From a virus, in the IMG/VR virus record IMGVR_UViG_3300025828_002535, positions 1 through 20,549 of that record: a stretch of DNA of 20,549 bases. One strand, written 5' to 3'. Shown here one piece after another: positions 644-18,470 of this stretch. Every line of letters starts with the position of its first letter. Positions within the stretch are counted from its first letter, which is position 1. Under the pieces are notes generated by a model. That model was not told where the DNA came from, searched no databases, and saw nothing but the letters and a program-made list of their open reading frames with translations. The position numbers and the translations under genes were made by a program.

Positions 644-818
644 GTATCTACACCACTTCACCTGTAGCGAGTGCATAGGTTGGTGGAGTATTGCAAGTCA
701 TGAGAACTATAGACCTAAGAAGATGTATTGTCCTCATTGTGGACACTACCATGAAAAAATTGAAAGACATGATGTAAGGACTGGTGAACCACAGTATGAT
801 TTATTTCAAGACGATTAG
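624..818 (+). CDS. Small zinc-ribbon protein
   Basis: This 64-residue protein has two CxxC knuckles: CSEC (residues 14-17) in an FTCSECIGWWSIA context and CPHC (35-38) followed by GH. This is a single treble-clef or zinc-ribbon module, probably binding one Zn(II). It starts at ATG 624 or the next codon, ATG 627. The Shine-Dalgarno sequence is poor, so it may be translated by coupling, since it overlaps the preceding gene by 20 bases. Its end overlaps the start of gene 46 by 23 bases. Similar small zinc-ribbon proteins sit beside 46/47 in marine T4-like phages as far as I recall. The role is unknown; nucleic-acid binding or help to the gp46/gp47 complex would be a guess from context. Confidence 0.75.
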   Translation: MMKSTIEYLHHFTCSECIGWWSIASHENYRPKKMYCPHCGHYHEKIERHDVRTGEPQYDLFQDD

Positions 819-2511
819 ATGGAAGAACTTTCTATCAACAGGCAATGTAAACACTGAAATCCAACTAAATCGTTCACCAAACACAATCGTTGTTGGTGAA
901 AACGGTGCGGGCAAGTCTACAATACTTGACGCATTATGTTATGTTTTGTTCAGCAAACCATTCCGTAGAATTTCAAAATCGCAACTACTTAATACTATCA
1001 ATCAACGAGACTTGATGGTAGAGATTGAGTTTAGTATTGGTAAGCAAGAATACATCATTAAGAGAGGTATGAAGCCTGCTAAGTTTGAAATCTATCAGAA
1101 TGGTAATCTATTAAACCAGCCAGGTTCAGTAAGAGATTATCAGAAGCAACTTGAAGAGACTATTCTCAAACTTAACTATAAATCTTTCACACAAATCGTT
1201 GTGTTGGGTGCATCTACATTTGTGCCTTTCATGCAGTTGACAGCGGCTAATCGTAGAGAGGTTATTGAAGACTTACTGGACATTAGTATCTTCTCTTCTA
1301 TGGGTAAGTTGTTGAAAGATAGGATTGCAGAGAACAAAGAAGATATTCGTGAAACTGAATATCAGATGCAGTTGGTTGAGAGTAAGATTGAGACACAGAA
1401 AGATTACATTCGTAAACTGAAAGAACAGAGTGATGATACCATTGCTACCTTTCAGAACATGATTGATGAATCAGAGAAAGAGATACAGTCTCTTACATCT
1501 AACAATGCTTGTATGATTACAAAAACAGAACTGCTACTTGAAAAGGTAAAGGACTCCGATTCTATTACACTTAAAAGTGGTAAGGTGTTTGACTTGATTA
1601 ATAAGTTAAGGAGCAAACATGACAAAGCGCACAAACGAATTGACTTCTTTGAAAGAAATGATGAATGCCCTACCTGTTCACAGGAGATTGAAGATTCTAT
1701 TAAGAGCAAGGTTATTGAGGACACAAATCAGATTATCGAAAAAGTCAAAGATGGTATACAAGAACTGGAAGAAGAATACAATACGCTACAGGAAAGACTT
1801 ACTGAGATACAAACTACTCAGCAAGAGGTCAGTGTTTTGCAGTCTAATGTTTCAACAAATCAATCAACAATTAAATCCTTGGAGAAGTCCGTTTCCAAGA
1901 ACCAAGGAGAAATTCAGCGAATACAAAGCGCAAATGCTGACGACACTGAGGCAAAAGATACTCTTGAAACATTACAGAGAGAAAATCAGACATTCTCTGA
2001 GAAGAAAGAAGAACTAATCAACGACAGAGAATTATTTGGTGTTGCTTCTGATATGCTGAAGGATGGTGGTATCAAAACCAAAATCATTCGACAGTATGTT
2101 CCGATTATGAACAAACTGATTAACAAGTATCTCGCCGCACTAGATTTCTTTGTAGCATTTGAGTTAGACGAGGAGTTCAATGAGATTATTAAGAGTAGGC
2201 ATCGTGACGAGTTTTCTTATGCTTCATTCTCTGAAGGGGAGAAGATGCGAATTGATTTGGCATTACTATTCACATGGCGTGCAATTGCTAAACTCAAAAA
2301 CTCTACTAACACTAACCTACTCATCTTGGATGAAGTCTTTGATGCTTCACTTGATACTGCTGGCTGTGATGAGTTTCTAAAACTGATTCATCAGTTGGGT
2401 GGTGAGACTAATGTGTTTGTCATCTCACATAAGGGTGATGTTCTGTCAGAGAAGTTTCGTAATCAGATTCGCTTTGAGAAAGTGAAGAACTTTAGTAGAG
2501 TAGCGGCATGA
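796..2511 (+). CDS. 46: Recombination endonuclease subunit gp46 (Rad50/SbcC-like ATPase)
   Basis: This 571-residue protein (T4 gp46 is about 560) shows the full SMC/Rad50 layout: Walker A GENGAGKST at 34-42, a long charged coiled coil broken by a zinc hook CPTC at 291-294, the ABC signature FSEGEK at 478-483, Walker B LLILDE at 508-513, and a late VISHKG histidine switch. With gp47 it forms the ATP-driven nuclease that resects DNA ends for recombination-primed replication and helps degrade host DNA. I chose ATG 796 rather than GTG 784: GGTGA lies 8 bases before ATG 796, and the protein then begins MIYFKTIRWKNF, as expected of the first strand of this family. The 3' end overlaps the next gene by ATGA. 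Confidence 0.97.
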   Translation: MIYFKTIRWKNFLSTGNVNTEIQLNRSPNTIVVGENGAGKSTILDALCYVLFSKPFRRISKSQLLNTINQRDLMVEIEFSIGKQEYIIKRGMKPAKFEIYQNGNLLNQPGSVRDYQKQLEETILKLNYKSFTQIVVLGASTFVPFMQLTAANRREVIEDLLDISIFSSMGKLLKDRIAENKEDIRETEYQMQLVESKIETQKDYIRKLKEQSDDTIATFQNMIDESEKEIQSLTSNNACMITKTELLLEKVKDSDSITLKSGKVFDLINKLRSKHDKAHKRIDFFERNDECPTCSQEIEDSIKSKVIEDTNQIIEKVKDGIQELEEEYNTLQERLTEIQTTQQEVSVLQSNVSTNQSTIKSLEKSVSKNQGEIQRIQSANADDTEAKDTLETLQRENQTFSEKKEELINDRELFGVASDMLKDGGIKTKIIRQYVPIMNKLINKYLAALDFFVAFELDEEFNEIIKSRHRDEFSYASFSEGEKMRIDLALLFTWRAIAKLKNSTNTNLLILDEVFDASLDTAGCDEFLKLIHQLGGETNVFVISHKGDVLSEKFRNQIRFEKVKNFSRVAA

Positions 2512-2828: not shown

Positions 2829-3354
2829 ACGAAGTGATTTTGAAAGAGTAGAACGAGACTTCTATCCAACACCAGAAGCGGCTGTTCTACCCCTTTTACC
2901 GCATTTGCCACCAAACTGTCCTTTTGTAGAGCCTTGTGCTGGCGATGGAAAACTCATAGATATACTATGCAAATATGGACATGAGTGTGTGTTTGCTAGT
3001 GATATCGAACCTCAGAGAGATGATATTAGGAAAGCAGACTTTGAGGAACTTGGATACTTTGCATATCAGAAGGGTCATAAGATAATTACCAATCCACCTT
3101 GGAATCGAAAGATACTTCATCCGATGATTGAAAGATTCAGAGAAGTTGGTAAAGGTGCGTGGTTACTCTTTGATGCTGATTGGATGCATACAAAACAAGC
3201 AATACCTTATCTACCATATGTCAGTAAAATTGTAAGTATTGGTAGAGTAAAATGGATACCAGACAGCAACTCTACTGGTAAAGACAATTGTTGTTGGTAT
3301 TATTTTTCATCACTCAAAGCATACAGAACAGAATTTTATGGGAGAACAGAATGA
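2821..3354 (+). CDS. SAM-dependent methyltransferase with NPPW motif (probable DNA N6-adenine type)
   Basis: This 177-residue protein begins with the phage-typical RDFYPTPEAA (12-21). SAM-binding motif I follows as VEPCAGDGKL (36-45), then an acidic residue at the end of strand 2 (SDIEP, 60-64), and motif IV ITNPPW (89-94). NPPW/NPPY is the amino-methyltransferase signature that holds the exocyclic amine of adenine (or cytosine N4, or a protein amide). The order motif I then NPPW in a compact protein without an obvious recognition domain fits small phage orphan methyltransferases. Whether the target is DNA is inferred. It overlaps its neighbours by 8 bases (5') and ATGA (3'). The cysteine pair near 157-158 (NCCWYYFS) is unexplained. 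Confidence 0.82.
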   Translation: MGKRSDFERVERDFYPTPEAAVLPLLPHLPPNCPFVEPCAGDGKLIDILCKYGHECVFASDIEPQRDDIRKADFEELGYFAYQKGHKIITNPPWNRKILHPMIERFREVGKGAWLLFDADWMHTKQAIPYLPYVSKIVSIGRVKWIPDSNSTGKDNCCWYYFSSLKAYRTEFYGRTE

Positions 3355-3878
3355 AACTTGATTTGATTGGAAGTATGGATGAGAGATTGAGAGTTCATAG
3401 TGAACCTTTCGATTTTCAAAATCCACAGATGGACGCTAATGAGTTATTTGAAAATCTAAAAGAGACAATGATTGAAAACAATGGTGTAGGGTTGTCTGCT
3501 ATTCAGTGTGGTATTCCATTGAGAGTTTTTGTGATGGGAAGTCCTACTGACCCTGACAATATTGCTGGAGTTTTTAATCCAAAAATTGTTGACTCATCCA
3601 AAGAAACAACACTAGAGGAAGAAGGATGCTTGACATTCCCAGGCCTTTATGTTAAAGTAAAAAGATATGATTGGATTCGTGTAAGATACACCACACAAGA
3701 GGGTGTAACTGACACAATAAAGTTTGGTGGAATGACTGCTAGAATTTTTCAGCATGAACTCGACCATTGTAACGGCATTCTGTATACAACGAGAGCAAAT
3801 AGGTATCACCTTGAGCAAGCGAAAAAACAGAAAGCAAAACTTGATAAACTAAGGAAAAAGCATAGGATGGTAGCATGA
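3351..3878 (+). CDS. def: Peptide deformylase
   Basis: This 175-residue protein removes the N-formyl group from nascent proteins. All three family motifs are present: GVGLSAIQ (45-52, for GxGLAAxQ), EGCLTFPG (91-98) with the metal-binding Cys93, and QHELDHCNG (134-142) with metal ligands His135 and His139 and catalytic Glu136. The start is ATG 3351, which forms an ATGA overlap with the preceding stop and has GGAGAA 4 bases upstream of it. The open frame extends further upstream but is not needed. The C-terminus is Lys-rich (about 155-172). Deformylases are recurrent auxiliary genes of marine myophages, where they may keep processing of phage or photosystem proteins going late in infection. 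Confidence 0.96.
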   Translation: MKLDLIGSMDERLRVHSEPFDFQNPQMDANELFENLKETMIENNGVGLSAIQCGIPLRVFVMGSPTDPDNIAGVFNPKIVDSSKETTLEEEGCLTFPGLYVKVKRYDWIRVRYTTQEGVTDTIKFGGMTARIFQHELDHCNGILYTTRANRYHLEQAKKQKAKLDKLRKKHRMVA

Positions 3879-7029: not shown

Positions 7030-7058
7030 TTGACATCTGATACACCGCCACTTATATT
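7030..7058 (+). promoter_or_regulatory. Sigma70-like promoter for the metallopeptidase/VWA gene
   Basis: TTGACA (7030-7035) and TATATT (7053-7058) are separated by exactly 17 bases, near-consensus for a host sigma70 promoter as used by early T4-like genes. The expected start is near 7065, leaving a leader of roughly 23 bases with AGAGGA (7072-7077) before ATG 7088. A 6-base inverted repeat CACTTA/TAAGTG (7049-7054 and 7066-7071) overlaps the -10 box and could be an operator or a leader hairpin. The sequence shares much more than the two boxes with the promoter at 9366. Confidence 0.85.
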
Positions 7059-7087: not shown

Positions 7088-9337
7088 ATGGTAAATATTC
7101 AGTCTAAAGAAGTTCTTGCCCGTTTGTTGGCCACTGAGAATTTGACAGTGGTTCATCAGAATGTGCAGACTGCTTCATTTAATGTAAAAGACCGTGTTCT
7201 CACTCTCCCACTTTGGGATGAGATGGAGAACTACACTTATGACCACCTTGTTGGCCATGAGGTTGCTCACGCATTGTATACGCCCGCTGATGAATGGGAA
7301 AAGCAAGCAAAAGCAGGTGGTTCTGGTTTTCAGTCTTTTATGAATGTCGTTGAGGATGCTCGTATTGAGAAACTTGTTCAACGGCGTTATCCTGGCCTTC
7401 GCAAGTCATTCATTCAGTCTTACAAGAAACTGCTTGCTGATGGTTTCTTTGGTAAGAGTGCTGATGAGATAAATAATTTCAAACTTATTGACCGTCTGAA
7501 TATTTTGTTCAAGTGTGGACAGACTGTCGGTGTTCAATTCAGCAAAGAAGAGAAGACTTGGATTACTGAGATTGAGAATGCTGAGACTTTTGAACAAGTC
7601 GTAGATATTGCTACTCGTCTTTACGGTAAAGCAAAAGAAGAGTTTGATGAAGAGCAACAAGCGATGTCTCAAGCCTTTGCTGAAATGCAAGCGGAGTACG
7701 GCGATGAAGAAGACGAGTTTGATGCTGGCGAATACGGTTCTGATTACGAGGATGAATCAGAATTTGACGCTGAAGCAGACGATGGCTCTGAAGAGGAATC
7801 GGATGCGGAGCAAGGCGAAAAAACCGATACAGAACAAACCAGTGATGTAGACGAGGACTCAACTGCAAACGGCAGTTCTGAGCCGTCTGAGAGCGATGCA
7901 GAGGGGTCTGAGGCCACCACTGTCGGGCATGAAGGTGGTGAGCAAGGTCCGCAATCTATCACTGATAAGTCACTGAATGAGAACATCTCAAAAGAGTTTG
8001 CGTCTGACCCCAATAAGACTTTCTATAACTTGAAACTTCCTACTGACAAGCCTCAACTGGCTCTCGACCGTGTTGTTGATTACAAAGAAATCTTGTCTCT
8101 CTTTGATGATAATCAAGAGGCTGTCGAGGCTGGTGGTGAATTTCTAAAAATCTTTCAGCGTGACAACAAAAAGACAATCAACTACCTTGTCAAAGAATTT
8201 GAGATGAAAAAGAAAGCCTCTGAATACCAGCGGGCTACTGTCTCAAAGACTGGTGTTATCGACACTCTAAAAATGAACAACTACAAGTTCAGTGATGACA
8301 TTTTCAAAAAGATGACTGTGTTGCCTGAGGGTAAGAATCATGGACTGCTGATGTTCATCGACTGGTCTGGTTCGATGGTTGACCAACTCAAAAATACTAT
8401 CGACCAGTTGTTGAACTTGGTAATGTTCTGCAAGCAAGTCAATATTCCTTTCGAGGTCTATGCCTTCAGCGACAGGTATTACAATGTAAATAATAAGAAG
8501 ACCTTCAAACATCGTGACATATTTGATTTGTATGAGATTGGATATGATGACAAGTTTCATATGCTTCAGTTGTTCACAAACAAGATGGGTCGTTCAGACT
8601 ATCAGAAAATGCTCAAGGTGATGCTTGCGATTGGTGAATACATGGATAATTATAACGCCAGAATGCGTTACAATGTTCCTTACAACTTGTATCTAGGTGG
8701 AACACCACTTGATGATGCTATCGTTGCTGGTATTACGCTTCACAAAATCTTCAAGACTAAAAATCGGTTGGATGTTGTCAATACTGTATTCCTTACTGAT
8801 GGTGCGAGTGCCGCATTGGAGTTCAGTGAAGAAGTTGTTGATAACTTTAGTCACAATAAGCAACAATACATTCATGAGAATAGGTTGTCATTCCGTCAGT
8901 CATTTAAGGCAGAAAGAACTGTTGTCTATGTTACTGACCCTGTGACTAAGAAGCGGTATCGTTGGATTAATCAAGACTTGGCTACGCCTCAACTGCTGAA
9001 GATGTTCAAGGAACACACTCAGTCGAATGCAATCGGCTTTCATATTTTACCATATCGTAAGCCATCAGCAATTCGGGAAATTCCTTCTGGAGATTACTTT
9101 GAGCGAGAGCAGTTGTGGGAAAATCTGAAAAAGGATAAGTTCTGCATCATTCCTAACTATGGATACACTCAATACTTTGGTATTCTAGGTGGTCGTGCGC
9201 TTGCTACCTCTAATGGACAGATTCAAGTTTCTGATGATGCTAGTAAGTCTCAAATCCGCAACGCCTTCAAGAAAGCGAATGGTAATCGGAAAGGTAGTCG
9301 AGTGATGCTTTCTAAGTTCATCGACTTGGTGGCCTAA
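7088..9337 (+). CDS. Metallopeptidase-like / VWA domain protein (CobT-type partner of the AAA+ ATPase)
   Basis: This is a 749-residue protein in three parts. The N-terminal domain carries HEVAH (57-61) and a downstream NVVEDARIEK (86-95), a pattern of zinc metallopeptidase-like domains (HExxH...ED). A very acidic low-complexity linker spans about residues 202-288. The C-terminal von Willebrand A domain has the MIDAS motif DWSGS (425-429), a threonine loop in LGGTPLDD and TDG at 570-572. The same arrangement is seen in bacterial proteins paired with MoxR-type ATPases and in the CobT subunit of cobaltochelatase. In marine myophages the gene is usually called a peptidase. Its ATPase partner follows at 9443. 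Together they may act as a chaperone-like machine that remodels or cleaves a protein; a cobalamin role is not supported here. The start ATG 7088 has AGAGGA 10 bases upstream. Confidence 0.9.
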   Translation: MVNIQSKEVLARLLATENLTVVHQNVQTASFNVKDRVLTLPLWDEMENYTYDHLVGHEVAHALYTPADEWEKQAKAGGSGFQSFMNVVEDARIEKLVQRRYPGLRKSFIQSYKKLLADGFFGKSADEINNFKLIDRLNILFKCGQTVGVQFSKEEKTWITEIENAETFEQVVDIATRLYGKAKEEFDEEQQAMSQAFAEMQAEYGDEEDEFDAGEYGSDYEDESEFDAEADDGSEEESDAEQGEKTDTEQTSDVDEDSTANGSSEPSESDAEGSEATTVGHEGGEQGPQSITDKSLNENISKEFASDPNKTFYNLKLPTDKPQLALDRVVDYKEILSLFDDNQEAVEAGGEFLKIFQRDNKKTINYLVKEFEMKKKASEYQRATVSKTGVIDTLKMNNYKFSDDIFKKMTVLPEGKNHGLLMFIDWSGSMVDQLKNTIDQLLNLVMFCKQVNIPFEVYAFSDRYYNVNNKKTFKHRDIFDLYEIGYDDKFHMLQLFTNKMGRSDYQKMLKVMLAIGEYMDNYNARMRYNVPYNLYLGGTPLDDAIVAGITLHKIFKTKNRLDVVNTVFLTDGASAALEFSEEVVDNFSHNKQQYIHENRLSFRQSFKAERTVVYVTDPVTKKRYRWINQDLATPQLLKMFKEHTQSNAIGFHILPYRKPSAIREIPSGDYFEREQLWENLKKDKFCIIPNYGYTQYFGILGGRALATSNGQIQVSDDASKSQIRNAFKKANGNRKGSRVMLSKFIDLVA

Positions 9338-9349
9338 AAAAATGAAAAA

Positions 9350-9389
9350 AGTTGGCTCATTGCCATTGACATATGATACTGAGCCAACT
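9350..9389. repeat. 10-bp inverted repeat around the cobS promoter -35 box
   Basis: AGTTGGCTCA (9350-9359) and TGAGCCAACT (9380-9389) are exact reverse complements separated by 20 bases. The -35 TTGACA lies inside the loop and the right arm runs up to the first base of the -10 TATATT. As RNA it would form a hairpin just after the stop codon of the upstream gene (9337), but no U-tract follows. As DNA it would be a good operator covering the spacer of the promoter. Both uses are possible. Confidence 0.75.
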
Positions 9390-9394
9390 ATATT
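9366..9394 (+). promoter_or_regulatory. Sigma70-like promoter for the AAA+ (cobS-like) gene
   Basis: TTGACA (9366-9371) and TATATT (9389-9394) are 17 bases apart. The start should fall near 9401, giving a leader of about 40 bases with AGAGGA (9431-9436). Outside the boxes it shares TGATAC, CCA and the bases after the -10 with the promoter at 7030, so the two AAA+/VWA genes appear to be fired by sister promoters rather than as one operon. Confidence 0.85.
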
Positions 9395-9442
9395 AATACT
9401 GTGAGATTAAAAAATTGTGAAACCTTTGAGAGAGGACTTGTT

Positions 9443-10597
9443 ATGAAACTCACTAAAAACCAAGAAGCGTTTGTTACTGCCGCTTCCCAAAAATACGGTA
9501 ACACTATTACTCGTCAACAGATTCTTGAGTTGATGGAAACTGAGGGCTTTAAGAAGCCAGTATGGTTGGTGCGTGGTAATAAGTATCGTATCGACCGTGG
9601 TATGTATCGTCTTCCTGTTGCTGGTGCAGAACCAGTTCCTACTCCAAAGCCTGAAACGCAAGTTGCTCTACAGCCTGCCGCTTTGGTAAAGGATATGAAT
9701 GTGACTACAGAATCTTTCACTGAAAATCTTGTTCCAGAGAAAGACCCTTTGTTTGTTCCATTTGGTAACTTTACCAAAATCAAGCAAATCGTTGCTTCTA
9801 AAATGTTCTATCCAGTTTATGTGACAGGTCTGTCAGGTAATGGTAAAACATTCGGTATTGAGCAAGCCTGCGCTCAAACCAATCGTGAAGTCATTCGTAT
9901 CAACTTTACTGTTGAGACTGATGAAGACGATTTGATTGGTGGCTTCCGTCTGATTGACGGTGATACCAAGTTCTTCAAAGGCCCTATCATCAAAGCGATG
10001 GAAAAGGGTGCAGTTGCTCTGCTTGATGAACTTGACCTTGCTAATCCTGCCAAGGTGATGTGTCTTCAGTCAATTCTAGAAGGTAAGGGATACTTCATCA
10101 AAAAGACTGGTGAGTATGTCAAGCCTGCCCCTGGCTTTACTGTGATTGCTACTGCAAACACTAAAGGTAAGGGTTCTGATGATGGACGCTTTATCGGAAC
10201 TAATGTGATGAACGAAGCGTTTCTTGAGCGTTTCCCTATCACTGTCGAACAGGAATATCCACCAGTTACTACTGAGAAAAAGATTCTTGGTAAGGTGTTT
10301 GATGACCTTGGTATTAATGATGCTGAGTTTGTCGAGAAACTGGTAGACTGGGCTGACATCATTCGTAAGACATTCTACGATGGTGGTGTCGATGAGATTG
10401 TATCAACTCGCCGTTTGGTTCACATTGCAAAAGCATACAGCATCTTCAGTGATAAGATGACTGCTATTGAGATGTGTATCAATCGTTTCGATGAGGATAC
10501 TAAGCAGTCCTTCAAAGACCTCTATACCAAAGTTGATTCTGGTGTAGAGGAGCAGACTGAGACTTCTGAGGAAGTTACTGATAATGTTCCTTTCTAA
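9443..10597 (+). CDS. cobS: MoxR/CobS-family AAA+ ATPase
   Basis: This 384-residue ATPase has Walker A GLSGNGKT (129-136), Walker B ALLDELD with Asp195-Glu196, sensor-1 IATANT, an arginine-finger-like FLERF and a sensor-2 STRRLVH near residue 310. The N-terminal 100 residues form a separate region with a Pro-rich linker. The closest description is the 'CobS' ATPase of marine T4-like phages, a relative of the CobS cobaltochelatase subunit and of MoxR. MoxR-type ATPases work with VWA proteins, and that partner is the gene just upstream. Cobalamin synthesis is a name carried over from annotation, not a demonstrated role. I chose ATG 9443 (AGAGGA 6 bases upstream) over an in-frame GTG at 9401 that would sit at the predicted transcription start. 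Confidence 0.93.
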   Translation: MKLTKNQEAFVTAASQKYGNTITRQQILELMETEGFKKPVWLVRGNKYRIDRGMYRLPVAGAEPVPTPKPETQVALQPAALVKDMNVTTESFTENLVPEKDPLFVPFGNFTKIKQIVASKMFYPVYVTGLSGNGKTFGIEQACAQTNREVIRINFTVETDEDDLIGGFRLIDGDTKFFKGPIIKAMEKGAVALLDELDLANPAKVMCLQSILEGKGYFIKKTGEYVKPAPGFTVIATANTKGKGSDDGRFIGTNVMNEAFLERFPITVEQEYPPVTTEKKILGKVFDDLGINDAEFVEKLVDWADIIRKTFYDGGVDEIVSTRRLVHIAKAYSIFSDKMTAIEMCINRFDEDTKQSFKDLYTKVDSGVEEQTETSEEVTDNVPF

Positions 10598-11642: not shown

Positions 11643-11935
11643 GTAAGTTCAAGTTTGATGAAGATAAAATTCTGAAAGAGGTCTATGATTATGTGGCCGC
11701 CACTTACGATGGTCACTACTCTTTCAATAAGTTCCAGTCTACTGAGTTTATTATCGACAGTGGACACGGCGAAGGTTTTTGTATGGGTAACATCATCAAG
11801 TATTGCCAACGCTATGGAAAGAAAGATGGTAAGAATAGAAATGACTTGCTAAAGGTCGTTCACTATGCTATAATGGCACTTTATATTGATTCAATTGAAA
11901 ACAGAACTGAGGTAGATAATGATGAGAATCAGTGA
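11639..11935 (+). CDS. DUF3310-like protein
   Basis: This 98-residue protein has a C-terminal helical block GFCMGNIIKYCQRYGKKDG (46-64) followed by NRNDLLKVVHYAIMAL (67-82). That is the pattern of the DUF3310 / phage nucleotide-kinase-like family, in which a 'G-N-x-I-K-Y-x-x-R-x-G-K' helix is followed by a 'D-L-x-K-x-x-x-Y' helix. The first half (FDEDKILKEVYDYV...) is a separate helical region. Function is unknown; a link to nucleotide metabolism is often suggested. It is coupled to the gene before it by an ATGA overlap and overlaps the clamp gene by 17 bases, so it may affect clamp translation. Confidence 0.75.
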   Translation: MSKFKFDEDKILKEVYDYVAATYDGHYSFNKFQSTEFIIDSGHGEGFCMGNIIKYCQRYGKKDGKNRNDLLKVVHYAIMALYIDSIENRTEVDNDENQ

Positions 11936-12599
11936 CAAGACTTTTGATGTGTTGAAGAACTTTTCGACAATCAATCCCTCTCTTGCATTCAAGCGAGGGA
12001 ATACACTCCGCACAGTGAGTGAACAAAAGAACATCCTCGCTCAAGCAGTGGTGGATGAGACATTCCCACAAGACTTTGCTATCTATGAACTGAACCAGTT
12101 TCTAGGCCTTGCTAGTCTATTTGAAAATGCAGACTTTGCATTTGGTGAAATGGATGTAACGATTCGTGATGAGAGTAATAAGTCTCGTTCTCGTTATACT
12201 TACACTGACCCTTCTATGGTGACATCACCACCAGAGAAAAATATTGATATGCCTGACCCAGAGATTTCATTCACTGTCACTGCTGGTGATTTGAAGGCGG
12301 TCGTATCTGCATCCAATCAACTGGGTCTTCCTCATGTTGTAGTTCGTGGTGGCACAATGGGTATCTCTCTTGTTGCAACCGACACCAAGAATCCAACATC
12401 CAATGAATACAGTCGTGATGTTGCTCCAAGTAACGGTGCAATTTTCGATATGATATTCAAAACTGAAAACCTTAAATTTATCCCAGGCGACTATGATGTG
12501 AAGATTTCCAAGGCTGGTATCTCTCACTTCAAGAATACTTCAGAACAGATTGAGTATTGGGTTGCCACTGAAACAAATTCGGAGTATAATAATGATTAG
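11919..12599 (+). CDS. 45: DNA polymerase sliding clamp gp45
   Basis: This 226-residue protein (T4 gp45 is 228) aligns with T4 clamp landmarks: an N-terminal VLKNFSTINPSLAFKRG (10-26), DFAIYELNQFLGLASL (52-67), a central DP-S-V pattern, a second domain starting at GDLKAVV, and a closing FIPGDYDVKISKAG - W/YVATETNS ending like T4's 'YVVALEADS'. The trimeric ring tethers gp43 to DNA and, in T4-like phages, also activates late transcription together with gp55 and gp33. That fits the TATAAATA late boxes further on. The start is ATG 11919 or the adjacent ATG 11922, with GAGG 6 or 9 bases upstream. No conserved residue is missing that I can see. Confidence 0.95.
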   Translation: MMRISDKTFDVLKNFSTINPSLAFKRGNTLRTVSEQKNILAQAVVDETFPQDFAIYELNQFLGLASLFENADFAFGEMDVTIRDESNKSRSRYTYTDPSMVTSPPEKNIDMPDPEISFTVTAGDLKAVVSASNQLGLPHVVVRGGTMGISLVATDTKNPTSNEYSRDVAPSNGAIFDMIFKTENLKFIPGDYDVKISKAGISHFKNTSEQIEYWVATETNSEYNND

Positions 12600-12828: not shown

Positions 12829-13773
12829 ATGCGTGAGCAATTTTTATGGGTAGAGAAATATCGACCAAAGATGGTTAAGGATACTGTTCTGCCACCCTCA
12901 CTGAAAGAAACCTTTCAGACTTTCGTAGATAATAAAAACATTCCAAACCTTCTTCTAACTGGTTCTGCTGGTGTAGGTAAGACTACTATTGCTAGAGCCA
13001 TGTTAGAAGAGTTGGACTGTGATTACATTTTAATCAATGGCTCCGATGAAGGTCGTTCTATTGATGTTCTAAGAAATGAACTGAGAAATTTTGCATCATC
13101 AGTATCACTTGCTGGTGGTCGAAAGTATGTTATCTTAGATGAAGCAGACTATCTAAATCCAAACTCTGTGCAACCAGCACTGAGAAACTTTATGGAAGAA
13201 TACAGTGCCAACTGTGGATTCATTCTGACTTGTAACTTTGTTAATAAGATTATCGCACCATTACAAAGTCGTTGTTCTGTTGTAGATTTCAAAATTAGCA
13301 ATGCTGACAAACCTCAAATGGCTAAAGAGTTTTTTGGTATGGTGCAGAAGATTCTTCTACTAGAACAGGTGGAGTATGAGCAAAAGGTTGTTGCTGAAGT
13401 AATCAAGAAACACTTTCCAGATAATAGGAGAATCTTAAATGAACTACAGAGATATTCTGCTACTGGTTTTATTGACTCTGGTATTTTATCTAATCTTTCA
13501 GATACAAATATTAAAACTCTTATTGATGCAATAAAGAACAAAGAGTTTAGTGCTGTTCGTAAATGGGTAGCACAGAATGTCGATGGTGATGTAGCGCCAC
13601 TTTTTCGTAAAATTTATGATGGAATGAATGAATACATTCAGCCTCAGAGCATACCACAGACTGTAGTTACACTCGCCGACTACCAATATAAGTCTGCTTT
13701 TGTTGCTGACCAAGAGATTAACTTTATGGCGTGTCTGACAGAACTAATGGTGGAAGTAGAATGGAAACAATAA
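12829..13773 (+). CDS. 44: Clamp loader ATPase subunit gp44
   Basis: This 314-residue AAA+ ATPase (T4 gp44 is about 319) begins WVEKYRPK (7-14), the clamp-loader signature. Walker A is GSAGVGKTT (45-53), the DEAD-form Walker B is VILDEAD (101-107), sensor 1 is at TCN (134-136) and the SRC arginine finger at 147-149. gp44 forms a four-subunit ring that with one gp62 opens gp45 and loads it at primer ends. The Shine-Dalgarno (GGTGA, 3 bases before ATG) is unusually close, and there is a 27-base gap after the previous gene. Unlike T4, the next gene is not 62 but an oxygenase whose start lies within the last 13 bases of this one. Confidence 0.97.
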   Translation: MREQFLWVEKYRPKMVKDTVLPPSLKETFQTFVDNKNIPNLLLTGSAGVGKTTIARAMLEELDCDYILINGSDEGRSIDVLRNELRNFASSVSLAGGRKYVILDEADYLNPNSVQPALRNFMEEYSANCGFILTCNFVNKIIAPLQSRCSVVDFKISNADKPQMAKEFFGMVQKILLLEQVEYEQKVVAEVIKKHFPDNRRILNELQRYSATGFIDSGILSNLSDTNIKTLIDAIKNKEFSAVRKWVAQNVDGDVAPLFRKIYDGMNEYIQPQSIPQTVVTLADYQYKSAFVADQEINFMACLTELMVEVEWKQ

Positions 13774-14519
13774 TCAATCAAATGAATGAAGAAAAAGAGA
13801 CCAAGGCTCTTGAAGAAATGCAGAAGTGGAAAGAAGAGAATGTCATTGAATATGTGGAAAACAATGACACTGTTCCATATCAATGGTATTCTTGGGGTCC
13901 ACCACTATGTCAATTTCAAATCACCGATGAAGAACTTGATATTGTAAAGGAACAAATCGAGAAAGATGAAGATGGAACAAATTATGCTCATCAGTTAGCG
14001 GGCGCAGTAGAAACACAAACTGGATTTAGTGGTTTAACGAGATATAATATTTTCAATACAATTGCAAGATATTTCTATGCGTATACTAGACACGCATTTT
14101 TGAATCATTCGGTTATGGCTGAAACTGAAGAATTTAATGTGAATCACATATGTCAATCGTTAGAGTGTAGAACTATGTGGGTAAATCATATGGTTGCTGG
14201 TGATTATAATCCTCTGCACACTCATGATGAACAAATGTCGTTTGTTCTTTATACAGAAGTGCCTGAAGGACTTGACGCTGAGATAGAAAACAGTTATAAT
14301 GAAAGCACTAGAAGAGTAGCACCTGGCGCAATTGAGTTTAGATATGGAACATCAAACATTCATCCATTGTCCTGTATTATCAAAAGGTCATTTCCCCCAA
14401 AGACGGGCGAATTGTTTATCTTTCCAAACTATCTGGAGCATCAAGTGTATCCATTTAAGAGTGAAGGAGTAAGAACTTCAATATCAGGAAATCTAAGATA
14501 TAATAGAGTTTACGAATGA
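13761..14519 (+). CDS. 2-oxoglutarate/Fe(II)-dependent oxygenase (PF13759-like), inserted between 44 and 62
   Basis: This 252-residue protein has a double-stranded beta-helix oxygenase core in its C-terminal half: WVNHMVAGDYNPLHTHDEQM (140-159) with candidate iron ligands His153, His155 or Asp156, then LYTEVP, and GELFIFPNYLEHQVYPF (216-232) with His227. RTSISGNLRY (238-247) follows, with Arg238 as the likely 2-oxoglutarate contact. This is the pattern of the phage/cyanobacterial '2OG-Fe(II) oxygenase' family PF13759. The N-terminal 35 residues are charged helix. The start ATG 13761 has GGTGGAAG just upstream; GTG 13731 is in frame but deeper inside gp44. It ends with an ATGA overlap with gene 62. 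The substrate is unknown. Confidence 0.82.
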   Translation: METIINQMNEEKETKALEEMQKWKEENVIEYVENNDTVPYQWYSWGPPLCQFQITDEELDIVKEQIEKDEDGTNYAHQLAGAVETQTGFSGLTRYNIFNTIARYFYAYTRHAFLNHSVMAETEEFNVNHICQSLECRTMWVNHMVAGDYNPLHTHDEQMSFVLYTEVPEGLDAEIENSYNESTRRVAPGAIEFRYGTSNIHPLSCIIKRSFPPKTGELFIFPNYLEHQVYPFKSEGVRTSISGNLRYNRVYE

Positions 14520-14911
14520 ATCCATTTGATTATATTAATGCTATCAATACTAGTAAGAAGAATCTCATGCGAGGTTCAGATAATGACACTCTCGCTGAGA
14601 AGTCATATTCTTCTTACATGACTAATCGTGCATTGTCTTATCATTTAGATACAATTGGTGTTGCGAATGAGATGAATAAGCGTTGGGAAACAGACAATCT
14701 CCTTCAGTTCGAGTATTTACTAAATACTGTTAGACCCAAAAAGAGGTTTGCAAAATGGGTGAAGAAAGATAATGAAGGCGATTTGTCTGTTGTGAAAGAA
14801 TACTATGGTTACAACGATTCTAAAGCATTACAAGCCCTTTCTATCCTTTCTTCAGAACAATTAATAAAGATAAGAAAAACACTGGAAAAAGGTGGGAGTA
14901 ATGACGGTTGA
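14516..14911 (+). CDS. 62: Clamp loader small subunit gp62
   Basis: This 131-residue protein is the single non-ATPase subunit of the T4-type clamp loader. Recognisable features are SYSSYMTNRALSYH (30-43), QFEYLLNTVRPKKRFAKWVK (64-83) and VKEYYGYNDSKALQAL. T4 gp62 carries 'YSKFMVENALSQF', 'FNYLMAAVPRGKRYGKWAK' and 'LAKRYQVN' in the same order. At 131 residues it is shorter than T4 gp62 (187) but of the length I recall for marine T4-like phages. It starts by an ATGA overlap with the oxygenase, not with gp44, and overlaps regA by 11 bases. Confidence 0.92.
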   Translation: MNPFDYINAINTSKKNLMRGSDNDTLAEKSYSSYMTNRALSYHLDTIGVANEMNKRWETDNLLQFEYLLNTVRPKKRFAKWVKKDNEGDLSVVKEYYGYNDSKALQALSILSSEQLIKIRKTLEKGGSNDG

Positions 14912-15300: not shown

Positions 15301-15747
15301 ATGGAAAAAAGATTGATATACTCTAACTTTCGTGGTGTAGAGGACTTTATGAATGCATTTGGACAGGAAGTAAAAACTGAGCCAGAATTTCCAAACGAAG
15401 AAACACAAAAATTAAGAGTAGAACTCATCGAAGAAGAACTTGGTGAGTTGAAAGAAGCAATCGAAGCAAAGAACCTTGTAGCGGTTGCTGATGCTCTTAC
15501 CGATATACTCTATGTTACTTACGGTGCAGGTCATGCATTTGGTATCGACTTAGACAGATGCTTTGCTGAAGTGCAACGAAGTAATATGAGTAAACTTGGT
15601 GCAGATGGGAAGCCAATCTATCGTGAAGATGGTAAGGTGCTGAAGGGGCCTAACTATCGTGAGCCGAATCTGTACGAAGTCATGTACTCTACATATCTTG
15701 ATGCGAGAGCAAAAAAGATTGCAGAGAACAAGCCTGATGGGCTATAA
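15301..15747 (+). CDS. mazG: MazG-like nucleotide pyrophosphohydrolase
   Basis: This 148-residue all-alpha NTP pyrophosphatase has ELIEEELGELKEAI (41-54) and VADALTDILYV (62-72). These supply the ExxE and D(x)xD metal sites, with Glu45, Glu49, Asp65-equivalent and Asp68 region residues. NMSKLGADGKPIYREDGKVLKGPNY follows in two parts (95-119), a tail typical of marine phage MazG proteins. Phage MazG hydrolyses dNTPs and may change (p)ppGpp levels or clear non-canonical nucleotides; in vivo substrate is debated. It starts at ATG 15301 with GGAAAG 10 bases upstream, one base after the regA stop. The stop codon lies inside a late promoter box. Confidence 0.88.
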   Translation: MEKRLIYSNFRGVEDFMNAFGQEVKTEPEFPNEETQKLRVELIEEELGELKEAIEAKNLVAVADALTDILYVTYGAGHAFGIDLDRCFAEVQRSNMSKLGADGKPIYREDGKVLKGPNYREPNLYEVMYSTYLDARAKKIAENKPDGL

Positions 15748-15750
15748 ATA
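15743..15750 (+). promoter_or_regulatory. T4-type late promoter (TATAAATA) for hsp20
   Basis: TATAAATA at 15743-15750 is an exact match to the T4 late consensus, read by host RNA polymerase with phage gp55, gp33 and the DNA-bound clamp gp45. It overlaps the mazG stop. The start should be close to 15756, at the beginning of a palindromic segment, leaving about a 55-base leader before hsp20. No -35 box is required in this class. Confidence 0.8.
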
Positions 15751-15811: not shown

Positions 15812-16240
15812 ATGACACATTTAACTACTTTCGATATTAATCGACTCACCCCTTATGCAGTTGGCTTTGACCGTGTATTCGACAATTTGTGGAAATATGC
15901 GGAGCATCAATCACAGTCAACAGGTTTCCCACCCTACAACATTCGCAAGGAATCGGAGACTGAGTTCTTCATTGACTTGGCGGTTGCAGGCCTCTCAAAA
16001 GAGGACTTAGAAGTGGAGCATAAGCAAGGTGAAATCACAGTTCGCTCAACCTATGAAAATATCAGTGATGGTGCTGAACTAATTCATAGAGGTATTTCCT
16101 TCAAAAAGTTTAATCGTAAGTTTACACTTGCAGATGACATTGAAGTAAAGAGTGCTGAACTGAAAAACGGAATGCTTACAATCGAACTTGAGCGTATCAT
16201 TCCAGAAGAGAAGAAGCCTAAGTTAATTGAAATCAAATAA
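15812..16240 (+). CDS. hsp20: Small heat shock protein Hsp20
   Basis: This 142-residue alpha-crystallin-type chaperone has an N-terminal arm with FDRVFDNLWKYA, a core beginning YNIRKESETEFFIDLAVAGL (43-62), a middle LEVEHKQGEITVRSTYE and a C-terminal LADDIEVKSAELKNGMLTIE ending in the I/V-x-I-type tail (LIEIK). Hsp20 holds unfolding proteins and is a regular member of marine T4-like phages, where it is expected to assist capsid or tail assembly. It sits behind a late promoter and a good AGGAG (15799-15803, 8 bases before ATG), and ends in a strong hairpin terminator, so it looks like a single-gene late unit. Confidence 0.96.
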   Translation: MTHLTTFDINRLTPYAVGFDRVFDNLWKYAEHQSQSTGFPPYNIRKESETEFFIDLAVAGLSKEDLEVEHKQGEITVRSTYENISDGAELIHRGISFKKFNRKFTLADDIEVKSAELKNGMLTIELERIIPEEKKPKLIEIK

Positions 16241-16905: not shown

Positions 16906-17413
16906 ACAAAATTGGGAAAAGTGTCTAGAAACTATCCTTCATCATGAAGGTGGTTATGTAAACCATCCAAAAGACCCTGGCGGTGAAACTAATCTTGGTG
17001 TTACCAAAAGAGTTTATGAAGAATGGGGTGGCACAAAAGATATGCAAGACTTGACAGTAGAAGATGTCGAGCCTATCTACAAGAAGAACTATTGGGATAG
17101 AGTAAAGGGTGATGATTTGCCTGCTGGACTTGACCTTTGTGTGTTCGATTTCGGTGTTAATGCTGGAACAGGTAGAGCGGCAAAGTTTCTACAAGGACTA
17201 GTTGGTGCTGGACAAGATGGTGCAATCGGCCCAGGCACACTAGGTAAACTTGCTGAGTATCTTGAAAGCCATACTGTTGAAGAGGCAATTGGTGAGTATC
17301 AACACAAGAGACAAGGTTACTATGAAAGTTTGTCTACCTTTGGTACATTTGGTAGAGGTTGGACACGGCGTGTAACTGAAACTACTGAACTTGCACTTGA
17401 GATGATTGATTAA
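16898..17413 (+). CDS. Endolysin, GH108-family muramidase
   Basis: This 171-residue protein shows the family's N-terminal signature HHEGGYVNHPKDPGGETNLG (15-34), with Glu17 in the EGGY motif as the likely catalytic acid. LDLCVFDFGVNAGTGRA then leads into a C-terminal peptidoglycan-binding segment containing GQDGAIGPGTLGKL. GH108 enzymes cut the glycan strand of peptidoglycan to release virions. There is no signal peptide or transmembrane helix, so a holin would be needed; none is seen in the window. The start ATG 16898 has AGGAG 5 bases upstream and lies inside the end of the oxygenase gene. The next gene follows after a 106-base regulatory gap. Confidence 0.93.
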   Translation: MAEQNWEKCLETILHHEGGYVNHPKDPGGETNLGVTKRVYEEWGGTKDMQDLTVEDVEPIYKKNYWDRVKGDDLPAGLDLCVFDFGVNAGTGRAAKFLQGLVGAGQDGAIGPGTLGKLAEYLESHTVEEAIGEYQHKRQGYYESLSTFGTFGRGWTRRVTETTELALEMID

Positions 17414-17416
17414 TTT

Positions 17417-17445
17417 TTGTCACAAAAGTGCAAAAAAACTCACAT
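17417..17445 (+). promoter_or_regulatory. Possible Pho-box-like 11-base repeats upstream of pstS
   Basis: Three 7-mers TTGTCAC, GTGCAAA and CTCACAT are spaced by AAAA at an exact 11-base period just upstream of the pstS promoter box. The first and third match 5-6 and 5 of 7 bases of the enterobacterial PhoB half-site CTGTCAT; the middle one matches poorly. The phasing and the downstream phosphate gene are suggestive, but the A-rich spacers could create this by chance. Confidence 0.3.
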
Positions 17446-17446
17446 C

Positions 17447-17454
17447 TATAAATA
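17447..17454 (+). promoter_or_regulatory. T4-type late promoter (TATAAATA) for pstS
   Basis: An exact TATAAATA match 66 bases before ATG 17520. The expected start is around 17460, within the left arm of the hairpin at 17456. The box could also act as a -10 element for host polymerase with PhoB. This is the second exact late box in the window; both precede an auxiliary gene. Confidence 0.75.
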
Positions 17455-17455
17455 C

Positions 17456-17493
17456 GAAAAGAGACACCAAAGGGAGAAATGGTGCCTCTTTTC
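17456..17493. terminator. Hairpin between endolysin and pstS
   Basis: GAAAAGAG (17456-17463) pairs with CTCTTTTC (17486-17493) and CACCA (17465-17469) with TGGTG (17480-17484), with one A-C mismatch between and a 10-base loop. The T-rich right arm would suit a terminator for the endolysin transcript. Since it lies where pstS transcription should start, it may instead be a 5' leader hairpin. It reads similarly on both strands. Confidence 0.7.
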
Positions 17494-17519
17494 TATTTCT
17501 AATCATAGGAGAACGATTA

Positions 17520-18470
17520 ATGCATAAATCGCTCGTAGTACTATTTAGTGCTTTTTTAATTTCAATAACTTCTACAGCATTTGCCCGTGACCAAATTTCA
17601 GTCGTAGGTTCATCTACAGTCTTTCCATTCGCAACATCAGTAGCAGAAAAATTCGGACAACAACAAGGTTTCAAAACACCAGTCATTGAATCAACTGGTT
17701 CTGGTGGCGGTATAAAGATGTTTTGTAAAGGCCTTGGTGCTGTCACGCCTGACATTGCTAACGCATCAAGAGCAATCAAACAAAAAGAAATTGATGACTG
17801 TAAATCAAATGGTGTAACACCAATCGAATACCTTATTGGTTATGATGGTATTACATTCTCAAATTCTAGAGAGGGTGAGAAAGTAAGTTTCACAAAAAGT
17901 GATATCTTCAATGCTGTCTCTGAAAAAGTTTTAATCAACGGTGAATGGGTAGACAATCCATATACAAAGTGGAATGAGATTAATCCATCACTTCCAGATT
18001 ATAGAATTGATGTAATGATTCCACCAACAACATCTGGAACAAGAGATGCCTTTGTAGAACTCATTATGCATGACTATTGTAAAAAAGAACTCAAAATGAG
18101 TAAGAAAGAATACAAAGCACACTGCACTGCTACTCGCACAGATATTCATGTAGTGCAAATGGGAGAGAATGATAATCTAATCATTGAGAAACTTGTCAGT
18201 GAGCCAAAGAGATTTGGTGTGTTTGGTTTTTCTTTTCTCGACCAGAATGTTGACAAAGTTCAAGCATCATTCGTTGATGGTGTAGAGCCTACTTTTGACA
18301 CTATTGCAGACGGCTCTTATACAGTATCACGGCCTCTATTCTTCTATGTAAAGAAAGAGCATATTGGTGTCATTCCAGGCATTCAAGATTTTGTCGATGC
18401 GTTTATGTCTGAGCAGGCAATTGGAGATGATGGTTATTTGGTAGAACAGGGGCTAATTCCTCTACAATAA
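17520..18470 (+). CDS. pstS: Phosphate-binding protein PstS
   Basis: This 316-residue protein has a clear signal peptide, MHKSLVVLFSAFLISITST with cleavage after AFA (residues 21-23 region). It then shows the PstS hallmarks: ISVVGSSTVFPFA (about 25-37), STGSGGGIKMF (59-69), a phosphate-binding SRAI (84-87) and PTTSGTRDAF (about 169-178). It binds periplasmic orthophosphate for the host PstCAB transporter. Phage pstS is a known auxiliary gene of marine T4-like phages for phosphate-poor water. AGGAG (17507-17511) lies 8 bases before ATG 17520; the open frame upstream has no Shine-Dalgarno and would bury the signal peptide. Its stop at 18470 is 3 bases before the -35 box of gene 43. Confidence 0.96.
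   Translation: MHKSLVVLFSAFLISITSTAFARDQISVVGSSTVFPFATSVAEKFGQQQGFKTPVIESTGSGGGIKMFCKGLGAVTPDIANASRAIKQKEIDDCKSNGVTPIEYLIGYDGITFSNSREGEKVSFTKSDIFNAVSEKVLINGEWVDNPYTKWNEINPSLPDYRIDVMIPPTTSGTRDAFVELIMHDYCKKELKMSKKEYKAHCTATRTDIHVVQMGENDNLIIEKLVSEPKRFGVFGFSFLDQNVDKVQASFVDGVEPTFDTIADGSYTVSRPLFFYVKKEHIGVIPGIQDFVDAFMSEQAIGDDGYLVEQGLIPLQ

Follow-up and report, generated by a model that had tools for sequence, protein, structure and literature searches.

A VWA protein with a predicted metallopeptidase-like domain and its MoxR-type ATPase partner in the replication module of a marine T4-like phage

The DNA analysed here is the IMG/VR virus record IMGVR_UViG_3300025828_002535 (positions 1 to 20,549; this whole stretch of 20,549 bases is called the window below). 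It comes from a marine T4-like phage and carries, side by side, a gene for a VWA protein with an N-terminal HExxH motif and a gene for a MoxR/CobS-type AAA+ ATPase. We propose that the two products may form an ATP-driven remodelling machine that brings its own metallopeptidase. The features of the pair are:

7088..9337, plus strand: VWA protein with N-terminal metallopeptidase-like domain, 749 residues, PHROG 459
7088..7699, plus strand: predicted gluzincin-like domain, residues 1-204 (AlphaFold model; PDB fold matches modest)
7256..7270, plus strand: HEVAH, residues 57-61, on helix 48-64
7343..7369, plus strand: NVVEDARIE, residues 86-94, on helix 81-100 (E89, D90, R92)
7700..7957, plus strand: acidic disordered linker, residues 205-290 (35 D/E and 1 K/R in 86 residues)
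8108..9337, plus strand: VWA domain with MIDAS, residues about 341-749 (fold matches to Midasin and NorD)
9443..10597, plus strand: MoxR/CobS-type AAA+ ATPase, 384 residues, PHROG 249 (Pfam AAA_5 1.8e-19, CbbQ_C 4.2e-7)

The PHROG 459 profile covers the VWA protein over its full length (protein 1-749 on profile 1-736 of 736, E = 7.5e-195). The original prediction had read from the letters a HEVAH with a downstream EDxR, an acidic linker of more than 80 residues, an intact MIDAS and a MoxR/CobS ATPase as partner, and all of these are indeed present: E89-D90-x-R92 follows the HEVAH, and the MIDAS is complete with D425-x-S427-x-S429, T539 and D571. E89 is likely to be the third metal ligand.

To follow the site through the family, IMG/VR was scanned with patterns taken from the VWA half only, so that HExxH was not selected for. 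The best 80 of 594 relatives were read, a sample skewed to closer relatives, and nine loci whose N-terminus was cut at a contig end were dropped. All 71 complete homologues have both HExxH and E-D-x-R, with a spacing of 20-28 residues in the 70 that were measured; one, L147, was scored as positive for E-D-x-R from its printed NAIEDVR. The catalytic glutamate and both histidines do not vary in this set. Since only about 0.09 HExxH motifs would be expected by chance in 749 residues (our own estimate) and the motif is kept in 71 of 71 homologues, it is not a chance occurrence. The Pelagibacter phage HTVC008M has HEVGH and NVIEDIR, and an identical VWA protein is encoded in the IMG/VR contigs L001, L002 and, in part, L007. 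Homologues were found in 463 phage records at E 1e-5, of which 435 cover at least 80% of the protein and 450 are named Synechococcus, Cyanophage or Prochlorococcus; the window protein is less than 60% identical to each of the 463. The annotation 'peptidase' is given to 55 of the 60 phage records among the matches listed. Against predicted viral proteins, Foldseek found 43 matches at E 0.001 or lower, and CobT-like or VWA-named proteins of Gordonia, Thermus and Haloarcula viruses are among those listed.

AlphaFold modelled the whole VWA protein with a predicted local distance difference test score (pLDDT) of 81.6, falling below 50 over residues 208-283 in the linker, and the N-terminal 204 residues alone with a pLDDT of 91.3 and a predicted template modelling score of 0.85. 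In the latter model HExxH and E89 sit on separate helices (48-64 and 81-100). In VIA-align the first 22 PDB rows for this model, with ZMPSTE24, ArdC, BlaR1, jannalysin, abylysin, selecase, IrrE/PprI, Q74D82 and BepA, are all zinc-metallopeptidase types, as which we take ArdC, IrrE, selecase and BepA from general knowledge; Wss1 appears lower, at Z 3.5. CobT is absent among the PDB fold rows, which excludes nothing, and neither the window protein nor an N-terminal profile had a meaningful match when searched by sequence against the PDB. As far as models can tell, the fold evidence for the N-terminal domain is modest yet consistent in kind. The VWA half matched the MIDAS domain of Midasin (8ql1, Z 16.6, 222 residues, 3.4 Å) and NorD (9qhe, Z 16.2, 219 residues, 4.6 Å) best; Midasin/Rea1 (Z 14.6 to 16.6) and NorD (13.0 to 16.2) rank ahead of other VWA domains (from 12.8). 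Both are co-chaperones of MoxR-type ATPases.

The partner has the features of such an ATPase, namely AAA_5, Walker A and Walker B (GLSGNGKT at 129, VALLDE at 191, with TAN at 237) and a VWA partner gene, and it matches PHROG 249 at near full length (E = 1.1e-123). The ATG at 9443 was chosen as its start over a GTG at 9401 because a promoter-like TTGACA-17-TATATT ends at 9394. Residues 2-62 (9446-9628) match just three Pelagibacter phage records in the phage collection (E up to 1) and look like a lineage-specific N-terminal extension. Homologues of the ATPase occur in 505 phage records at E 1e-10, and the counts for both proteins are equal by name, not by record-by-record pairing (365 Synechococcus, 61 Cyanophage, 24 Prochlorococcus, 3 Pelagibacter). 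Constant adjacency of the two genes was rejected, as the ATPase gene was seen downstream in 52 of 80 loci within the fetched DNA. It was found in 13 of 17 IMG/VR records searched whole, and the other four are 25 to 71 kb and may be fragments. In contig L111, where no ATPase was seen downstream, the VWA gene follows an exonuclease gene and a gene partly similar to DNA ligase.

Genes of this family are commonly annotated as vitamin B12 (cobalt chelatase) genes, CobS and CobT. The pair could be an auxiliary cobaltochelatase, in which phage CobS and CobT work with the CobN of the host to raise cobalamin, and the available text of PMC8651126 proposes such a hijack of CobN. In favour of this, the ATPase is partly similar to CobS (TIGR01650, 94.8 bits; PDB CobS, 3.6e-28), the VWA protein weakly matches phrog_5298, named cobalamin biosynthesis protein (8.1e-5), and several CobT-like proteins of mobile elements exceed the Pfam CobT or CobT_C cut-off. 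Against it, 94.8 bits is far under the curated CobS cut-off of 558.55, CobS stands behind Midasin (2.7e-47) among PDB sequences, and the window VWA protein matched neither Pfam CobT (PF06213) nor CobT_C (PF11775) up to E 10. A direct homology between the window protein and CobT was undetectable by hhalign (N-terminus 1.5%, C-terminus 7.9%). No CobN lies in the 20.5-kb window, which as a fragment need not hold it. Among the carriers are phages or elements of Pelagibacter, Klebsiella and Proteus, hosts that are not known to make corrin through CobN.

The invariant HExxH is likewise unexplained by chelation. Bona fide CobT sequences, gathered from the solved chain 9uka_G as 80 loci of close alphaproteobacterial relatives, lack it in all 79 that were parsed. 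At its place they have SMALR (35), SIALK (20), SMALK (10), AMALR (10), SIALR (2) or SLALR (1), with one unparsed, and 68 of the 79 have EQ instead of ED; where CobT has an SMALR-type sequence after RGxxD together with AVEQARVE, the window protein has instead HEVAH and NVVEDARIE. Pfam CobT was found at 95 places in 94 of 299 Pseudomonadota genomes. Forty-eight of these places were examined: HExxH is absent from the 37 stronger ones, is present at the site in four of the 11 weakest (L302, L303, L305, L306) and lies elsewhere in another weak one, L301. A further chromosomal VWA protein, L304, contains HEIVCH, which is one residue longer than HExxH. We also noted that of 84 Pseudomonadota genomes that match CobT strongly, some of which may be incomplete, 20 have no match to CobN/BchH (PF02514), and that Caulobacter, among 14 control genomes, has CobT but no CobN; CobST may work without CobN in places. 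DUF2201_N (PF13203), presumably a metallopeptidase-VWA family, had no match in ten alphaproteobacterial genomes. With these data we regard a chelatase function of the phage pair as very unlikely.

Relatives in other mobile elements would connect the two families. Of 14 VWA proteins encoded elsewhere on mobile elements or on plasmids, 11 have HExxH: those of the phages Rhizobium RHph_N2_6, Roseobacter CRP-810, Vibrio ICP2, Microcystis Mae-Yong1326-1 and Ochrobactrum OC, and those of plasmids or elements of Klebsiella (which we take to be of the SSU5-like type), Aeromonas, Marinobacter, Comamonas, Acinetobacter and Proteus (pR997, presumably of the SXT/R391 type). By eye, N-x-x-E-D is present in ten of these 11, ICP2 being the exception. 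HExxH is missing from the proteins of Pseudomonas phage hairong, Caballeronia NK8 and Methylobacterium AMS5, the last of which has no N-terminal domain. The original prediction had named homologues without HExxH as what would refute it: close relatives kept the motif throughout (71 of 71), and homologues of that sort do exist among distant relatives, in hairong, Caballeronia NK8 and bona fide CobT.

A profile of ten HExxH-bearing mobile sequences, which left out hairong, Caballeronia NK8, Methylobacterium AMS5 and OC, aligned with the window N-terminus by hhalign at 99.3% (E = 4e-20, 181 columns), HExxH on HExxH. The same mobile N-termini aligned with CobT at 84.7% (E = 6.7e-6), HExxH facing SMALR, which is a moderate step. 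With moderate strength, these alignments would tie the window N-terminus to CobT, via the mobile-element relatives only. In a MoxR tree of 46 rows, chelatase CobS forms one clade of 15 rows (100/100), five of which are divergent relatives, outside the window clade of 16 rows that includes the OC phage (100/99), and the HExxH-bearing CRP-810 stands next to CobS (97/94). The deep order is uncertain, as several branches are long, and the tree was rooted for display only. Loss of the HExxH site in CobT would be the simplest reading, the direction in the tree being weak owing to the long branches; no paper linking CobT to a lost zincin site was found in the literature listings.

According to PMC8651126 cyanophage cobT is mistakenly labelled a peptidase, and PMC9503304 repeats this. 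Three things argue against that view: the site is conserved, true CobT does not have it, and the pair lies in the replication module. That the cobalt chelatase label does not account for the peptidase-like site, as had been suspected from the letters, is supported by the lack of HExxH in true CobT and the missed CobS cut-off. The vitamin B12 label probably misleads, and inferences on B12 from counts of viral cobS and cobT need care.

The surroundings and the promoters of the pair bear on when it may act:

784..2511, plus strand: gp46-like recombination endonuclease subunit (phrog_77, E = 1.6e-175)
7030..7058, plus strand: sigma-70-type promoter of the VWA gene (TTGACA, 17 nt, TATATT), 11 of 12 consensus positions
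9366..9394, plus strand: sigma-70-type promoter of the MoxR gene (TTGACA-17-TATATT), 11 of 12 consensus positions
11919..12599, plus strand: gp45-like sliding clamp (phrog_223, E = 1.5e-72)
12829..13773, plus strand: gp44-like clamp loader (phrog_168, E = 1.5e-120)
14516-14911: second clamp-loader gene
15812-16240: hsp20

The window, a T4-like phage contig, also has a GH108 lysozyme gene. The pair belongs to the replication/recombination module, with gp46 on one side and gp45 on the other, and the order gp46-VWA-MoxR-gp45, with at most a few genes in between, recurs in S-TIM4, Ochrobactrum phage OC, S-PM2, P-HM1, S-CAM7 and HTVC008M. The promoters at 7030 and 9366 share the identical 14-mer TTGACATNTGATAC, for which 1.35 matches with up to two mismatches are expected by chance. 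In the window as a whole, promoter-like sites are not in excess (60 against 55.8 expected). Upstream of the homologues, a match of at least 10 of 12 was found in 41 of 96 regions, where shuffles average 4.4 and stretches inside the gene 3.4, and 32 of the 41 begin 48-70 bases before the assigned ATG. Judged from sequence, the promoters would fit transcription by a host-type polymerase before the late genes. The late motif TATAAATA was found in none of the 96 upstream regions, which is uninformative with 0.75 expected. In the window it occurs twice (0.73 expected; at least two reached by 14 of 100 shuffles), once as a T4-late-type site at 15743-15750 immediately 5' of hsp20. The window also has a gene for a PBP-like phosphate-binding protein of PstS type (17406-18470; Pfam PBP_like_2, E = 5.2e-44), and 3288-3878 resembles by eye a peptide deformylase (EEGCLTFPG, HELDH); in phage OC an annotated deformylase adjoins the CobT-like gene.

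This position matters for the proposal that the pair serves virion assembly or maturation, as a chaperone for virion parts with a peptidase that processes structural proteins. The same architecture is given this role in PMC7824862, and in PMC3037559 hsp20 is tied to capsid scaffolding; hsp20 is present in the window and lies between the pair and gp45 in HTVC008M. The pair itself does not lie in a structural module but between gp46 and gp45, and consensus sigma-70 promoters, enriched in homologues, precede both genes, so that we consider a virion role unlikely. Of the two targets left open by the original prediction, host proteins and maturing virions, the second looks the weaker.

Other mobile elements give weak support for a role near replication. 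Beside the pair or the VWA gene they have genes for DNA polymerase III alpha, a primase and a replicative-helicase-like ATPase, endonuclease V, a RecA-family ATPase, or exonuclease, bet, ssb and radC. The genes listed for the Comamonas stretch include no ATPase. A DUF3150 gene stands beside the HExxH VWA gene, or one gene from it, in the Marinobacter (L183), Comamonas (L184), Proteus (L185) and Aeromonas (L180) plasmids, with an exonuclease gene near these genes in L183, L184 and L185.

The conserved and intact metal-site residues, the fold matches to zinc metallopeptidases, a VWA domain of the kind found in MoxR-type co-chaperones and the partner ATPase support the machine proposed at the outset, and we give about an even chance that the pair is a phage ATP-driven remodelling machine with its own metallopeptidase. 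As in its family, the MoxR ATPase would form a ring, on which the VWA/MIDAS domain would dock a substrate or adaptor, as suggested by the fold matches to Midasin and NorQ-NorD. ATP-driven pulling would then bring the substrate to the gluzincin-like domain on its flexible acidic linker, where it would be cut or trapped. This may happen in early or middle infection, with complexes of replication and recombination or of the host as targets instead of cobalt chelation, and chelatase CobT would be a relative that lost the site.

Several points weigh against this proposal. Proteolysis and metal binding by the pair are predictions from sequence and models. The N-terminal fold matches are modest, with a top VIA Z of 6.8 and not one of 525 chains reaching 8, and a best Foldseek E against the PDB of 0.076 with none at or below 0.001. 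In the window VWA protein no match to a Pfam peptidase family came up to the family's cut-off, nor did any among the matches listed for 99 N-termini. ICP2 has HECYH, yet by eye no glutamate at the place of the third ligand. Caballeronia NK8 and Methylobacterium AMS5 have no replication gene beside the pair, and the neighbourhood is weak evidence in any case because early regions of phages and plasmids are generally rich in DNA genes. Finally, in hairong and Caballeronia NK8 the site is absent and the ATPase gene is kept; catalysis is therefore dispensable in some relatives. The last point leads to the alternative that the domain is a pseudo-enzyme adaptor, which binds metal or peptide uncut and recruits clients for the MoxR ring. 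Degenerate relatives with an ATPase partner (hairong, CobT, Caballeronia NK8) speak for it, and according to the available text of PMC7159879 the vWA-fused peptidase domains of conflict systems are mostly inactive, which is said there of trypsin- and caspase-like ones. If the site served structure only, changes of E58 should be tolerated, and the glutamate and both histidines are invariant in 71 homologues; an adaptor without catalysis is, to our mind, quite improbable for the window protein. Going beyond the remodelling machine of this phage, one may speculate, with rather low confidence, that ATP-driven VWA metallopeptidases of mobile elements (phages, phage-plasmids and conjugative elements) dismantle DNA-bound or replication complexes in the manner of Wss1/SPRTN, and that CobST arose from them by loss of the active site.

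Among known systems, the Midasin/Rea1 MIDAS and NorQ-NorD share the VWA fold (Z 13.0 to 16.6) and the partnership with an AAA+ ATPase, and to our knowledge neither has an HExxH domain. The minigluzincins, ArdC, IrrE/PprI, the M48 proteins ZMPSTE24 and BepA, BlaR1 and Wss1 are the best fold matches of the N-terminal domain, at modest scores (Z 3.4 to 6.8), and none of them matches it significantly by sequence. The cobaltochelatase CobS-CobT likewise combines an AAA+ protein with a VWA protein that has an acidic linker. T4-like cyanophages (Kyanoviridae) have PHROG 459 ('peptidase') and PHROG 249 ('porphyrin biosynthesis'), which match the window proteins at near full length and stand in the same gene order. 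By the published description in PMC7824862, as far as available, group 2.2 jumbo phages have a pair of the same architecture, a MoxR protein with an N-terminal metallopeptidase-vWA protein, for which virion assembly with processing is proposed; the window phage differs in phage group, and cyanophages and Ochrobactrum phage OC are assigned there to group 2.1. In what is available of PMC7159879, MoxR-vWA conflict systems are described in which a metallopeptidase domain is a rare effector. An ATP-driven protease or chaperone, as suspected from the letters, stands as a prediction in the form of an ATPase-linked machine with a peptidase-like domain, but it is not new: most phage records listed and the PHROGs say 'peptidase', and such a pair is described in PMC7824862. 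The kind of machine and the family are already known; what is added here is the motif-blind test of conservation, the link to a CobT without the site, and the evidence from promoters and position for an early role.

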